Shown here piece after piece: positions 15,389-23,627 of a stretch of 64,000 nucleotides of DNA; the stretch's first letter is position 1, and each line of letters opens with the position of its first letter. The translations under genes and the position numbers were made by a program. The stretch spans positions 1-64,000 of the forward strand of contig JACIWW010000006.1 of assembly GCA_014360905.1 (NCBI GenBank), written 5' to 3'. The notes beneath the pieces are model-generated. The model saw nothing but the letters and a program-made list of their open reading frames with translations. It ran no database searches and was not told the DNA's origin. The DNA is from Chloroflexota bacterium. GTDB taxonomy: Bacteria; Chloroflexota; Anaerolineae; UBA2200.

Positions 15389-16540
15389 TTGGATCTTAAC
15401 CAAATCACTCAATTGCTGACCTGGCTTGACGAGGAGCGCCGCAAAGACAAAGCGATGCTAATGGCTCTGCAAAGCCAAATTGATGTCCAAAAAGCACAAC
15501 TCACGGAGCAAGCCCGCCAATTGCAGGAGATGCAAACAGCGCTGGTCCGCATCGAAAGTCAGCCTCCCGCTTTGGCACAAATCAAGGACTCGCTGCAGAG
15601 CATCCGCACAGAGTTTGCTGAGCTTTTAGCCAAGCATGATGCTGAACAAGAAGCACGGGAACAAGCCCGGACACGGACCGATAAGTTGGAGAGCGAGACC
15701 ATCGCTAAGATTGTGCGCCAGTTACAGGAACGAGTGGATGCTATCGGCTCCTTCGACAACATGGCGGCTGTCCTGCGCGAGGAGGACAGCAAGCTGCGCA
15801 GCGAAATAACAAGGGCTTTCACCCAACTTGAGGATATCCTCAAGCGCTTTGAAGCCCAGGACCAACGCATTACCCTGCTTGCTCAAGATGCACAAGCTTT
15901 GCGGGATGGCCTGAACAGTATGAGAGTAACCTATGAGGGCTTGAGCACCAGCATCATGTCGCTCAAAGCCGCTCTCGATGCCCTAGGACCGCGTTTGGAA
16001 GCGAAAATTGAGCAGATACAATCATCCATCGAGGAAATCAGCAAGAGAGAGCAATCTGACATAGGTGCTTTGCAGGCCAAGCAACAAGCTCAAGACAGGA
16101 CGATGGAAGAATTAGGCAAAGAAATACAAGGCTTCAAGATACTGCTGGACCGCTGGGCCAAGCAGATGGACAGATTCACGGACGAGTTCGAGCGTGATAA
16201 GAAGACCTTATACGATTTGCGTGAGCTTGAAAGGCAACTGCGCCAGCAAGGAAACGAGCTCCTGGAGCGGCAGCGTTTGGAGGCGGAAAGGCAGCGCACA
16301 GAACTGCGCGAATGGCAAGACAATCAAATGAAGGTAGATGAGGAGCAAACAGCTCGTCTGGAACAATTGCTAGCCTGGCAACAAAAAGTCACCAAGATTC
16401 TGGAAAACCTGGAACAACGCCTCGAGCAGAACAAACAGGATATCAAGGCTTCCACTGATGAGTTTTGGCAGGTCATGGCCAACTATGTACAAGGGCAGGT
16501 CAAACTCCTAGAGATCTTGCAGCAGAAAAAGGTGGGCTGA
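15389..16540 (+). CDS. Long coiled-coil protein of unknown function
   Basis: 383 residues from TTG 15389, chosen because a full AGGAGG lies 5 nt upstream and the promoter starts transcription after the alternative ATG at 15281. It begins MDLNQITQLLTWLDEERRKD and is almost wholly heptad coiled coil, rich in Gln, Glu, Arg and Leu, with no Cys, membrane helix or signal peptide. I do not recognise a catalytic domain. It resembles SMC-type or filament-forming scaffolds in composition only. Its stop overlaps the selB start by one base (TGATG), so the two are translationally coupled and head a block that continues to nurA and herA. A function with SelB or with HerA-NurA cannot be deduced from sequence. 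Confidence 0.8.
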   Translation: MDLNQITQLLTWLDEERRKDKAMLMALQSQIDVQKAQLTEQARQLQEMQTALVRIESQPPALAQIKDSLQSIRTEFAELLAKHDAEQEAREQARTRTDKLESETIAKIVRQLQERVDAIGSFDNMAAVLREEDSKLRSEITRAFTQLEDILKRFEAQDQRITLLAQDAQALRDGLNSMRVTYEGLSTSIMSLKAALDALGPRLEAKIEQIQSSIEEISKREQSDIGALQAKQQAQDRTMEELGKEIQGFKILLDRWAKQMDRFTDEFERDKKTLYDLRELERQLRQQGNELLERQRLEAERQRTELREWQDNQMKVDEEQTARLEQLLAWQQKVTKILENLEQRLEQNKQDIKASTDEFWQVMANYVQGQVKLLEILQQKKVG

Positions 16541-18438
16541 TGCGCGTTATTGGCACAGCAGGACATGTAGATCACGGCAAATCCACTCTGGTGCATGCCC
16601 TGACAGGCATTGACCCCGACCGCCTAAAAGAGGAAAAAGAGCGCGAAATGACCATTGATCTAGGCTTTGCTTGGCTAAAATTGCCCAGCGGTCAGGAAGT
16701 GAGCATTGTCGACGTTCCAGGACATGAGGATTTCATCAAGAACATGCTTGCCGGAGTAGGAGGCATTGACCTTGCCCTTTTCGTCGTCGCCGCCGATGAA
16801 GGTGTCATGCCGCAAACCCGCGAGCATCTGGCAATTCTGGATCTTTTGCAGGTCTGCGACGGCGTAGTAGCACTGACCAAGAGCGATCTGGTTGAAGACC
16901 CCGAATGGCTGGAATTGGTGCAGGACGAGGTACGCAAGGAACTAGCTGGTTCGGTCTTGGAAAATGCTAGGATTATCCCTGTTTCCGCACGTACAGGGCA
17001 GGGGATATCCGAGTTATTAAACGAACTCGATCGCTTGTTGCAATCTCCTCCGCCTCGCACTGAGACAGGGCGACCACGCCTGCCCATTGATCGTGTCTTC
17101 ACCATTGCCGGTTTTGGTACCATCGTTACGGGGACGCTGATTGATGGACGTCTGCACAGTGGAGAAGAGGTGGAGATTCTGCCGGGCAACATCAAAGCAC
17201 GCGTGCGAGGGTTACAAACGCACAAAGCCAAAGTAGAAGTAGCTATTCCCCCCAGCCGTGTAGCAGTTAACCTTGCTGGAGTCAGCAAAGACCAATTGCA
17301 GCGTGGAGATGTCCTAACCACCCTGGGTTGGCTGCGCCCTACATCCTTGCTGGATGCGCGCCTGCGCTTGCTGAAAAATGCACCTCGTCCATTGGCGCAT
17401 AACACCATGGTGGATTTCTTCACCGGCACAACCCAATGTCAAGCACGGGTACGGCTGCTAGATTGTAAAGAGCTCGAACCAGGCGAGGAAAGCTGGGTAC
17501 AATTCATCTTGTCCGCTCCAGTGGTGGTAGTAAAAGGCGACCGCTTCATCATTCGCCAAGCTTCGCCAAGCCTGACGCTGGGTGGCGGCGCTGTGGTTGA
17601 TCCGTTTCCACAGCGACGGCATCGTCGCTTTCGGCGCGAGGTCATCAACCGGTTGGAACAACTGATCCGTGGCACGCCCGAAGAAGTCTTGTTGCAGGAA
17701 ATGGAACGCGAGCAACCCTGTGAGGCAGCCACTCTCGTGTCACGCAGCACACTGGGCGCTGAAAAGGCAACGCAAGCTCTTCGCTCGTTACTGAAAAGCG
17801 GTCAGGCAGTGCTACTGGATCCTGCTACGGACTTTGATTCCGTGCCTGCTAGCACCAAATACGTGATGTCAACAAATGCTTGGAAGTCGCTGCTAGAGAG
17901 AATGACCGCATTGCTGCGCGAGTATCACCTGCGTTATCCTTTGCGGGCGGGCATGCCACGCGAGGAATTGAAAAGCCGGTTACAGGTGGCCCGTGCCTTT
18001 AACGAGATCATGGCCAAAGCGGCAAGGCAAGGGATAATAGGGGAGAAAGAAACGGCTATCTTTCTGTCCGATCATCGAGTAGTGTTCAATCCAGAGCAGC
18101 AACGAAAGATCAATGAGCTGCTTCAGATGTTCGCAAAGAGCCCTTATGCGCCTCCATCGCTGGCTGATAGCGAAGCCCTGGTGGGAACAGAGGTCCTCGC
18201 TGCTTTGATCGAACAGGGAAAGCTAGTTAAGGTCAGCGATACCGTATTGTTCTCAGCAGAAGCCTACCAAACAATGATGCAGACCGTGGTTGATCATCTC
18301 AAACGCGAAGGCCGTATCACCCTGGCACAGGTGCGTGATATATTCTCAACCAGTCGCAAGTACGCTCAGGCTTTATTGGAGCACCTGGATGACAAACGCA
18401 TCACCAAACGCATTGGTGACGAGCGTATCCTGCGTTAG
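16540..18438 (+). CDS. selB: Selenocysteine-specific translation elongation factor
   Basis: 632 residues, usual for SelB, which carries Sec-tRNA to the ribosome at SECIS-marked UGA codons. The start ATG 16540 gives MRVIGTAGHVDHGKSTL, with the P-loop at 8-15. Other G-motifs are the switch II DVPGHEDF and ALTKSDL (TKxD). EF-Tu-like domains II and III follow, then the C-terminal winged-helix repeats (about 380-632) that bind SECIS RNA. It overlaps the preceding gene by one base, with nurA 14 nt downstream. No selA, selD or tRNA-Sec gene is in the window and I saw no selenoprotein here. It may therefore be active with genes elsewhere, which is unverified. Confidence 0.95.
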   Translation: MRVIGTAGHVDHGKSTLVHALTGIDPDRLKEEKEREMTIDLGFAWLKLPSGQEVSIVDVPGHEDFIKNMLAGVGGIDLALFVVAADEGVMPQTREHLAILDLLQVCDGVVALTKSDLVEDPEWLELVQDEVRKELAGSVLENARIIPVSARTGQGISELLNELDRLLQSPPPRTETGRPRLPIDRVFTIAGFGTIVTGTLIDGRLHSGEEVEILPGNIKARVRGLQTHKAKVEVAIPPSRVAVNLAGVSKDQLQRGDVLTTLGWLRPTSLLDARLRLLKNAPRPLAHNTMVDFFTGTTQCQARVRLLDCKELEPGEESWVQFILSAPVVVVKGDRFIIRQASPSLTLGGGAVVDPFPQRRHRRFRREVINRLEQLIRGTPEEVLLQEMEREQPCEAATLVSRSTLGAEKATQALRSLLKSGQAVLLDPATDFDSVPASTKYVMSTNAWKSLLERMTALLREYHLRYPLRAGMPREELKSRLQVARAFNEIMAKAARQGIIGEKETAIFLSDHRVVFNPEQQRKINELLQMFAKSPYAPPSLADSEALVGTEVLAALIEQGKLVKVSDTVLFSAEAYQTMMQTVVDHLKREGRITLAQVRDIFSTSRKYAQALLEHLDDKRITKRIGDERILR

Positions 18439-20319: not shown

Positions 20320-21954
20320 ATGAGCAGCAAAAGGCTAGGCGTAGTTATAGATGGCACTTTCAGCAGCGGACTTACCGTGCGCCTAGATCCTGGCATTACC
20401 ACTGAACAATTGCGCATTGGCAGTTTTGTCGTGGTAGAAGGCCAACGCAATCGCTATTTCAGTCTCATCTCGGACATCCATTTGAAAGCTACTGACCCGC
20501 GCTTGTTGAGCGATCCTCCTCGTGTCACCTCCCCGTTTATCGCTCGCACCTTGGCTGGCACCAGTGTCTATGCCACGGTCGAGGTGAGGCCAATGCTCAT
20601 GCTCGAGAAACCAGACGAATCTGACCCTCGTGCCTTGTTGGAAGAGCGCAGCGGACCGCAGCCGGTGAAAACGATACCCATGCATTTTGCCGAATTGCGC
20701 GAAGCCACCGATCTGGATTTTGCCACCGTCTTTGGCAAAGAAGGCGGGGAGTACTTTGCCATGGGCACACCGCTGACTATGGACATCCCCATCTGTCTGA
20801 AGTTGGATCGCTTCGTAGAACGCTCTGATGGCATATTTGGCCAGTCGGGCACAGGGAAAAGTTTCCTCGCACGGCTAGTTATCAGCGGCGTTATCAAAAG
20901 CAAAGTAGCGGTAAATCTCATCTTTGACATGCACGATGAGTACGCCTTTGATAAACAGACTGAAGACGGCCGCTGGGTAAAGGGCTTGCGCCAAATTTTT
21001 GGTCCCCAGGTGCTCATCTATTCTCTGGATGAGGAACTGGGACGTCGCACGGGGCGCAATGCTGATGTCACACTCAAAATTGGACTAAACCAGATTGAAG
21101 AGGCCGATGTGATCCTGCTGAGCGAAGAACTCAACCTACGCCAGACAGCGGAGGCAACCATTGGACTCTTGCGTGATCGCTTCCGCGAACAATGGCTGCG
21201 CAGACTCCTCGAGATGACCCAGGAAGAGTTAGAAGAATGGTGCAAAAGCAGTGGCGCTCACGCTGGGGCTGCAAGCAGCTTGCAGCGCAACCTGAAGAGG
21301 CTACAGCGACAAGAGTACGTTGTCCAAGAAGCATCCTTTGATGCATTGGATGACATGGTAGAATCGCTCGACCGGGGCAAGCACGTCATCCTGCAATTTG
21401 GCAGGCACAACAACGTGCTTGACTACCTGCTAGTTGCCAACCTGGTAACGCGACGCGTTCGTCAACGCTATGAAGAGAAAACACGTCGCTACGAAGAAAG
21501 CAAAAATGAAGCGGACAAGCCCCGCCCGCTGATGATAACCATCGAAGAAGCGCACAAGTTCCTCAACCCAGCCGTCGCCCGACAGACAACTTTTGGCACC
21601 ATTGCACGTGAGATGCGCAAGTACAATGTCACCCTGTTGGTAATAGACCAGCGTCCCAGCAGCATTGATCCCGAAGTAATGTCTCAGTTAGGTACGCGCA
21701 TCACAGGCAAGCTCACTGAAGAGCGGGATATTGACGCGGTGCTGACCGGGGTGAGCAATCGCAGTGCACTCCGCGGCGCTTTGGAAAGCTTGGATACGCG
21801 CCAGGAAATCCTCATCATGGGACATGCTGTGCCCATGCCCATCGCATTGCGCACTCGCCAGTACGATGAAGCATTTTATAAAGCAATGGGTACGCGTTTG
21901 GAGGCTCAGCAGGGAGCAGATATTAGCATCCAGGATTTATTTGGCGTGGAGTGA
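20320..21954 (+). CDS. HerA-type DNA translocase ATPase
   Basis: 544 residues with GGGGAGG 9 nt upstream of the ATG. The N-terminal part (1-60) is a HAS barrel. Walker A is GQSGTGKS with K180, and Walker B is in PLMITIEEAHKFLNP (near 400). The motif LLVIDQRPSSIDPEV follows, then an arginine-bearing segment TGVSNRSALRGAL. HerA forms a hexameric FtsK-like pump that moves dsDNA and activates NurA. In this order (nurA, small gene, herA) it is a bacterial version of the archaeal resection module. Bacterial HerA homologues also act in anti-phage systems paired with other effectors, so a defence role cannot be excluded. Confidence 0.92.
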   Translation: MSSKRLGVVIDGTFSSGLTVRLDPGITTEQLRIGSFVVVEGQRNRYFSLISDIHLKATDPRLLSDPPRVTSPFIARTLAGTSVYATVEVRPMLMLEKPDESDPRALLEERSGPQPVKTIPMHFAELREATDLDFATVFGKEGGEYFAMGTPLTMDIPICLKLDRFVERSDGIFGQSGTGKSFLARLVISGVIKSKVAVNLIFDMHDEYAFDKQTEDGRWVKGLRQIFGPQVLIYSLDEELGRRTGRNADVTLKIGLNQIEEADVILLSEELNLRQTAEATIGLLRDRFREQWLRRLLEMTQEELEEWCKSSGAHAGAASSLQRNLKRLQRQEYVVQEASFDALDDMVESLDRGKHVILQFGRHNNVLDYLLVANLVTRRVRQRYEEKTRRYEESKNEADKPRPLMITIEEAHKFLNPAVARQTTFGTIAREMRKYNVTLLVIDQRPSSIDPEVMSQLGTRITGKLTEERDIDAVLTGVSNRSALRGALESLDTRQEILIMGHAVPMPIALRTRQYDEAFYKAMGTRLEAQQGADISIQDLFGVE

Positions 21955-22004
21955 ATCAAAAAGCAGCAAGACCTATTTCCCCAAAACACTACGAAGGAGG
22001 ATCA

Positions 22005-23627
22005 ATGGCTACAAAAAGGATATCCTTTGATCTGGATGAGCCTCTGCACCGGCGTTTTAAAGCCCGTGTAGCTTACTTCAATGCTTCGATGACCAGCATC
22101 CTGAATAGCCTGATCAACAACTGGGTAGGAACGTGGGGCAATTATTTCCAACCCCATATTGTACAGGAAGGGGAAGATCTTCCCAGCATTGCTCAGAGAT
22201 ATTACAACGATCCCGAGCGATATTGGACGATCGTCTATTTCAATGACCTCTCTGATATAAACTTGCTCCAAGGACAAGAACTTTGGATACCCGAGCCGGG
22301 GGCAACGCCATCGGGCTTAGTACCTGGGGTTTCGATCCCGGAAAATGTGCCCAAGATCGCCGTGTCCGTGGAGATCGATGAGCTGCTTCATCGCCGGTTC
22401 AAGGCCAGGACTGCTTTCGAAGCGACCGCTATGAGCGCTTGGCTCTATGATTTTGTCGCCGCATGGACAGGCAAATGGCCCACTAAAACCGCAAGCTATA
22501 CGGTGAAAGCAGGAGATACTCTAAGTACAATTGCCTTTCGCTTCTACAATGATGCACGCAAATACTGGGTAATTGCCTATTTCAACGGCATTGCCAATCC
22601 CGCTCTCATTCATGTTGGTCAGCAGCTTATCATTCCAGAGCCAGTGACCGTAGGGCTGTTGCCGGCTGGCGAATCGCCGTACATCTTTGGCATTCACGAC
22701 CAAGGAGGCGAACACCTAATGGCCGCAAAAAGCAAGAAAGGCTGGGTACTGATCACCGAGGAAATTGGCCGGAATCCCTATGACTACAGTGGCAAGGATT
22801 ATTCTGCGCTGCAGAACGCTGGCTATGGCGTGATCGTGCGCCTGAATCATGGTTATAGTAACCCTTCTCTGAGCAACTACCCGGGCACCATTCCGGAAAG
22901 GGATGCCAACGCACAAAACTACCGGGAATTCGCTGTGCGCTGTGGCAACTTTGTCGAACAGTCAAAGGGATGCCATATCTGGATCATTGGCAACGAAATG
23001 AACCATCCCAACGAATGGCCGGGTGGTCCACAAGGCCAACCGATCACGCCCCAGAGGTATGCAGATTGCTTCAAGTGCTGCTATGAGGAGATACACAAGC
23101 GGCCGGGGCATAAGGATGATCAAGTAGTGATTGGCGCTGTTGCTCCTTGGAATGCCGAGACCAAGTATCCAGGCAACGAGCGTGGCGATTGGATCAAGTA
23201 TCTGGCCGATATCTTGATTTTTGTTGGCAACAAATGCGATGGCATAGCCTTGCATACTTACACCCATGGGCCTGAGCCAACCAAAATTACTTCTTATGCC
23301 CGGATGAATGCACCTTTCGAAGACCGTTACTTCGAATTCCGTACCTACCGTCAGTTTATGGAAGCCATCCCGCCCAGCATGAGGCATTTGCCAGTGTACA
23401 TCACCGAAACCGATCAAAACGACCCCTGGGCGCGCACCAACACCGGCTGGGTACAGGCTGCCTATGCAGAAATCGACAGATGGAACCAAGATCTGACACA
23501 CCAGAAAATTCGCTGCTTGCTTCTCTATCGCTGGCTGGCACACGATCAGTGGTCCTTTGCACATATCCCCGAAATCCTCGATGACTTCAGAGCAGCTATG
23601 AACAATGACTACCGTTGGTGGCGATGA
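22005..23627 (+). CDS. Fusion: (RHH-like + LysM) x2 + glycosidase-like TIM barrel
   Basis: 540 residues. ATG 22005 follows a strong AAGGAGG, 51 nt after herA. Residues 4-45 and 118-157 are two copies of a ribbon-helix-helix-like segment (FDLDEPLHRRFKARVA and VEIDELLHRRFKARTA). Each is followed by a LysM domain (about 51-97, 165-212; motifs GEDLPSIAQRYY and GDTLSTIAFRFY). Residues 226-540 resemble a clan-A glycoside hydrolase barrel, with candidate acid/base E331 in IIGNEMNHPNEW and nucleophile E468 in VYITETDQND. There is no signal peptide or membrane helix, which is odd for LysM plus glycosidase. An intracellular role or leaderless export is possible. I know no standard name for this architecture. 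Confidence 0.75.
   Translation: MATKRISFDLDEPLHRRFKARVAYFNASMTSILNSLINNWVGTWGNYFQPHIVQEGEDLPSIAQRYYNDPERYWTIVYFNDLSDINLLQGQELWIPEPGATPSGLVPGVSIPENVPKIAVSVEIDELLHRRFKARTAFEATAMSAWLYDFVAAWTGKWPTKTASYTVKAGDTLSTIAFRFYNDARKYWVIAYFNGIANPALIHVGQQLIIPEPVTVGLLPAGESPYIFGIHDQGGEHLMAAKSKKGWVLITEEIGRNPYDYSGKDYSALQNAGYGVIVRLNHGYSNPSLSNYPGTIPERDANAQNYREFAVRCGNFVEQSKGCHIWIIGNEMNHPNEWPGGPQGQPITPQRYADCFKCCYEEIHKRPGHKDDQVVIGAVAPWNAETKYPGNERGDWIKYLADILIFVGNKCDGIALHTYTHGPEPTKITSYARMNAPFEDRYFEFRTYRQFMEAIPPSMRHLPVYITETDQNDPWARTNTGWVQAAYAEIDRWNQDLTHQKIRCLLLYRWLAHDQWSFAHIPEILDDFRAAMNNDYRWWR

Follow-up and report, generated by a model that had tools for sequence, protein, structure and literature searches.

A gene in the analysed window, a stretch of 64,000 nucleotides from a Chloroflexota genome, encodes a protein in which two tandem units, each a ribbon-helix-helix (RHH) segment followed by a LysM domain, precede a glycoside hydrolase barrel, and which carries no export signal. 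We tentatively read this protein, with somewhat less than even confidence, as a chromosomal, endolysin-like, leaderless hydrolase of wall glycan in which the RHH pair would act as a pairing module. This reading is based on the observed domains, their duplication, the absence of a leader, the conservation of the gene, the relatives of the barrel in phage lysis genes and the chromosomal location, together with the RHH fold and strand formation predicted by modelling.

Domain organization and duplication

The layout of the gene is given in Table 1. The earlier note, made from the DNA letters, had described two blocks of an RHH-like segment and a LysM domain followed by a barrel, and all of these domains proved real in Pfam, in profile searches of the PDB and in an AlphaFold model. 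Pfam recognizes LysM (1.1e-16, two stretches, both units above the cut-off) and a ParG-type RHH (1.1e-8, also two stretches) in the complete protein. Scanned alone, RHH1 reaches 29.6 bits against ParG, above the cut-off of 21.4, and RHH2 16.3 bits, below it. The note had also placed the gene close behind herA with a strong ribosome site; the ribosome site stands, with AAGGAGG lying 4 nt upstream of the ATG, while the gap between the herA stop and the ATG is 50 nt and not 51.

Table 1. Coordinates in the window of the gene, its domains and its neighbours.
Feature	Position	Strand	Evidence
Whole gene, RHH-LysM-RHH-LysM-GH clan A barrel protein, 540 aa	22005..23627	+	ORF, Pfam, orthologues in G001-G004
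Ribosome site AAGGAGG, ATG 4 nt further on	21994..22000	+	Sequence
RHH unit 1, residues 3-41 (strand 3-11, helices 12-24 and 29-41)	22011..22127	+	Pfam ParG, AlphaFold DSSP, family profile against PDB
LysM 1, residues 48-98, long-loop type	22146..22298	+	Pfam 25.2 bits, model
Linker joining both units, residues 99-114	22299..22346	+	Low model confidence, poor conservation
RHH unit 2, residues 117-155 (strand 117-125, helices 126-138 and 143-155)	22353..22469	+	Model, likeness to unit 1
LysM 2, residues 162-212, long-loop type	22488..22640	+	Pfam 43.5 bits, model
Glycoside hydrolase barrel, residues 225-540, clan GH-A fold	22677..23624	+	Foldseek, relatives in class and viral contigs
E331, putative acid/base	22995..22997	+	Same in 15 homologues; motif in most phage relatives checked
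E468, putative nucleophile	23406..23408	+	Same in 15 homologues; motif in most phage relatives checked
selB, lasting genomic neighbour of the gene family, outside the protein	16540..18438	+	Synteny in f1 and f37 genomes
herA, upstream neighbour, incidental	20320..21954	+	Gene order across relatives

The two units are clearly alike: unit 1 and unit 2 align with a score of 207 (shuffled sequences, 25 ± 4.6; none of 2000 as high) and the two RHH segments alone with a score of 95 (shuffles, 19 ± 3.7). Judged by these alignments, RHH1-LysM1-RHH2-LysM2 is an internal duplication. In a tree of units, the first units of the five tandem proteins form one group (99/95), as do the second units (99/98), and the tandem units together with the one-unit homologue of genome G006 form another (97/89); because of these groupings the tree dates the duplication to within this lineage, before its species split. 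Compared with G001, dN/dS is 0.17 for RHH1, 0.30 for RHH2 and 0.04 for the barrel, dS being saturated for the LysM units, and the gene is under purifying selection in those regions where the ratio could be estimated.

The RHH units as a probable pairing module

A profile built from 35 RHH segments of the family and searched against the PDB matched ParG (6e-7), the RHH of PutA as second best (1e-3), AvtR (1e-3) and ParD (0.03), and several of the weaker matches that follow are also RHH proteins. AlphaFold modelled the full protein with a mean pLDDT of 86.5 (15-row alignment), and in this model DSSP assigns a strand followed by two helices to each RHH segment. Both have the strand-helix-helix order, the length of about 40 residues and the profile match of an RHH domain. 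The earlier note had allowed that these segments might be mere linkers of the LysM domains; the PDB matches and the predicted strand-helix-helix rule this out.

DSSP assigns a strand only where a partner strand exists. Each LysM domain of the full-protein model has its own two strands, and a control model of the one-unit homologue of G006 (112 residues) forms helices 22-34 and 39-51 with no strand ahead of them. For both reasons the strands of RHH1 and RHH2 most likely pair within one chain as a pseudo-dimer, their partnership being read from secondary structure in one predicted model. The probable task of the RHH pair is to hold the protein together and not to bind DNA: it would be a pairing module and not an operator reader, yielding an RHH-LysM pair from a single polypeptide, and one-unit homologues would form the same pair by homodimerising.

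That the RHH segments act on DNA or on partners had been proposed earlier, and it is DNA as a likely target that has lost ground. We assigned the DNA-contacting strand positions from what we take to be general for RHH proteins. Among 40 aligned RHH units, strand positions 6, 8 and 10 are nearly always hydrophobic, whereas the residues at 5, 7 and 9, which are exposed, differ between units; at position 9 they are acidic in 42% and basic in 5%. The mean net charge is -0.23, and the ParG and PutA segments of the PDB matches carry +3 and +1. Given the variability and frequent acidity of the contact positions, DNA binding by the RHH units is not supported, and it is probably absent.

These features bear directly on a PutA-like trigger enzyme, in which the RHH would bind an operator while the LysM domains and barrel sense glycan fragments, making enzyme and regulator one cytoplasmic protein. 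There is a precedent in PutA, an enzyme whose N-terminal RHH represses its own genes and also mediates dimerisation (PMC5293562); moreover, its RHH ranks second among the profile matches, an export signal is absent here as well, and in four of five orthologues the contact positions of RHH1 still read R-S-[DE]. The first contact position of RHH2 is nevertheless A, T or P, net charge is zero or below in 27 of the 40 units, and the contact positions are variable and often acidic as described. In addition, the gene follows herA (by 50 nt) or selB so closely that little space is left for an operator of its own, and the same module is joined elsewhere to unrelated C-terminal domains. We consider such an enzyme quite improbable.

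LysM type and absence of an export signal

The LysM domains are of a long type. In all 41 family units reached by the pattern, the GDTL..IA motif and the conserved N are separated by 16 residues; in the exported LysM proteins of the same genome the spacing is 13 in all matched cases except one divergent one (15). In HMMER alignments, wall-type LysM domains (Ecp6, SleL, LytN) align only with a three-residue gap, and 7aeb, the LysM of a contractile system, aligns without one; the first Foldseek matches of the one-unit model are Kbp chains and 7aeb. Because of the 16-residue spacing shared with 7aeb and these structural matches, the family LysM domains may differ from ordinary wall binders; they may not bind the wall at all, and an intracellular role is possible.

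The resemblance to baseplate LysM domains of contractile injection systems (7aeb, 9gtp) raises the idea that the protein is a cargo of such a system, which would account for both the missing leader and the LysM type. Sheath genes occur in 13 of 26 genomes searched, yet none was found in G000-G006, which hold all the tandem-architecture genomes found, and we regard this explanation as highly improbable.

The absence of an export signal, as the earlier note had it, is borne out by hydropathy: the highest 15-residue value within the first 46 residues of 35 RHH-LysM homologues is 1.08, as against 2.25-2.85 ahead of the first LysM in six exported LysM proteins encoded elsewhere in the genome. A seventh LysM ORF of this genome has a plain hydrophobic stretch and an eighth has none; the latter, L129:846-1292, is a leaderless LysM protein whose N-terminus is charged and coiled-coil-like and whose LysM belongs to the long type. 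The note had conceded that homologues with a different start might reveal a signal peptide. In G002, G003 and G004, however, the reading frame is closed 3-5 codons ahead of the ATG, and these stops, together with the low N-terminal hydropathy, rule out a hidden signal peptide.

A leaderless protein with long-type LysM domains would also suit an intracellular enzyme of wall-fragment turnover, which would trim imported muropeptides or glycans in the cytoplasm and be held together by its RHH and LysM units. The other RHH-LysM homologues lack a leader too, and those of amidase type match AmpD best (7e-37, below the NCBIfam cut-off), AmpD being a cytoplasmic enzyme. Against this stand the settings of the barrel family, which is found in phage lysis or tail contexts and in large proteins with Amidase_2, N_BRCA1_IG and F5/8C domains; a turnover enzyme seems to us rather unlikely. 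In the endolysin-like reading, the protein would be made without a leader, as classical phage endolysins are, and would gain access to the wall only once the membrane opens, or else by some other route.

The barrel and its relatives in phages

Foldseek places the barrel in clan GH-A, with a GH26 lichenase (2cit) as best match (E 1.1e-6, 14% identity). The model has the (beta/alpha)8 fold and the catalytic glutamate pair of this clan, from which hydrolysis is predicted. E331 and E468 had been called well placed, rightly so: they lie in the motifs IIGNE and YITE, and all 15 aligned homologues share both residues. The pair is lost in genome G214, whose homologue L054 (frame of 530 aa) reads IGEAPN and VTSAGPD at these places and keeps RHH and LysM; from its sequence it is likely a pseudo-enzyme. 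The barrel would cut wall glycan by a two-glutamate retaining mechanism, with the LysM units binding glycan or a partner. The substrate may instead be a polysaccharide other than peptidoglycan, since we know of no peptidoglycan hydrolase in clan GH-A.

The barrel could be placed in no glycosidase family. DUF5722 (PF18989) scores 22.5 bits on the whole protein and 24.1 on the barrel alone, below the Pfam cut-off of 30.5, and a literature search on DUF5722 found no paper; PHROGs holds no family for the barrel at E 0.001. A barrel profile matches 197 of 396 genomes of the class. Six long relatives (L117-L122, 829-1376 aa) have the barrel first and no obvious leader; of four long relatives scanned, three carry Amidase_2, in up to three copies, and one carries F5/8C domains.

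Viral contigs contain 25 loci with the barrel (37-51% identity). At one of them, L152, a holin gene (PF05105, 4.5e-21) lies directly upstream of, and overlaps, a gene joining the barrel to M23 and SLT domains. Another, L132, combines the barrel with M23; at L146 an N-acetylmuramidase gene lies two ORFs upstream of the barrel gene; and barrel genes are found shortly downstream of minor tail genes (L133, L134) or upstream of a terminase gene (L143). Because of these contexts, we conclude that the barrel is a domain used by phages in lysis or virion lysin proteins, and that the window gene is its chromosomal relative. In a tree of the barrel most phage copies cluster by themselves, and the copies of families f1 and f37 form another group (96/90) that includes one phage copy, L133. 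Among named phages no barrel match was found. The window gene itself lies in no lysis cassette or prophage, only relatives of its barrel being found in phage cassettes, and PF05105 holins were absent from the eight genomes searched.

Two of these contigs carry genes of separate interest. At L152:3418-6289, which spans the holin gene and the barrel-M23-SLT gene that it overlaps, the barrel-M23-SLT product is a possible three-enzyme endolysin, and the gene at L132:387-3032 has a TOTE-type primase domain.

Distribution and fusion partners

The complete RHH-LysM-RHH-LysM-barrel architecture is found in G000-G004, which belong to one family of Chloroflexota. In G006, from another family of the order, a one-unit RHH-LysM protein without a barrel occupies the same place after herA. 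The earlier note knew of no protein with this order of domains. The fusion is indeed not described in the papers searched, and a literature search gave no relevant paper joining RHH and LysM, but the module itself is recurrent: when 396 genomes of the class were searched with a profile of the unit, about 40 proved to contain full-length RHH-LysM. Among 400 sampled genomes of the phylum, matches occur only inside the class. Phages and plasmids yielded partial LysM matches and no RHH-LysM, and three limited scans of viral contigs gave no RHH-LysM protein.

The C-terminal partner is the present barrel in families f1, f37, f47 and f52, and Amidase_2 in f4, f14 and f45 (by Pfam) and in f17 (by eye). 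Further homologues end in SCP2 with another domain, in an unnamed domain, or in none. Thus in L076 and L078 RHH-LysM is joined to an SCP2 lipid-transfer domain, recognized by Pfam in L078, and to one more domain at the C-terminus. In L079, L080 and L081 the RHH-LysM-amidase gene is preceded on the same strand by a gene for a CT398-like coiled-coil zinc-ribbon protein (Pfam for L079 only).

A broader reading takes RHH-LysM as an unrecognised targeting or assembly module of the class, which would pair through a former DNA-binding fold and bring leaderless hydrolases (barrel, amidase and others) to the wall by an undescribed route, the barrel being an unrecognised lysin-type glycosidase common to phages. 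Taken in full, this is unlikely.

Genomic neighbourhood

In the window the gene is surrounded by selB, nurA, herA, a zincin gene and a radical SAM gene, and a tRNA-Sec (70 bits) is present in the genome. The order selB-nurA-x-herA-gene-zincin is found in G000, G001 and G002. The gene could accordingly be imagined as part of a HerA-NurA operon for DNA-end processing, with the RHH as a DNA clamp: it is on the same strand, 50 nt after herA, G001 and G002 share the order, and the one-unit gene of G006 sits at that place. Yet G004 retains only a herA-like remnant of 106 aa beside the gene, G003 lacks any match to nurA or herA in the interval from selB to the gene, and at eleven f37 loci the gene directly follows the selB match with no NurA or HerA match nearby. 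Since the gene is kept, under constraint, where herA has decayed or is missing, the link with herA is incidental. A partnership with HerA is ruled out by this gene order, which largely refutes the operon as well and leaves it hardly credible. The lasting neighbour, across two families of the class, is selB.

Comparison with known systems

If the endolysin-like reading is true, wall enzymes have taken over a DNA-binding fold as a covalent pairing module, and a barrel domain of phage lysis genes that is absent from PHROGs can be named. It also raises the question of how a whole bacterial class handles leaderless wall-type enzymes.

With ParG/CopG-type proteins the RHH units share the fold and the helix A motif, in keeping with the recovery of ParG by the family profile. 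They differ in being fused to LysM domains and hydrolases rather than forming a free regulator, and in having no conserved basic or polar contact set. PutA is likewise an enzyme with an N-terminal RHH; here, in contrast, there are two RHH units per chain, the catalytic domain is unrelated and the contact positions are often acidic. The clan GH-A glycosidases (GH26, GH51, GH10) have the same barrel fold and the catalytic glutamate pair in the usual motifs, although the present barrel is about 10-15% identical to the solved structures matched.

Modular phage endolysins such as LysTP712, which has a LysM and a signal peptide (PMC6832245), also combine LysM units with a glycoside hydrolase, and the present barrel family has a member in a holin cassette (L152) and shows fusions with M23 or SLT lysin domains. 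The present gene, however, is chromosomal, beside selB, with no holin gene found near it, and its product has a clan GH-A barrel where LysTP712 has GH25, as well as RHH units and no leader. The long proteins of the class (L117-L122) have the identical barrel type and, like the window protein, no obvious leader; instead of an RHH-LysM start they carry Amidase_2 or F5/8C domains.
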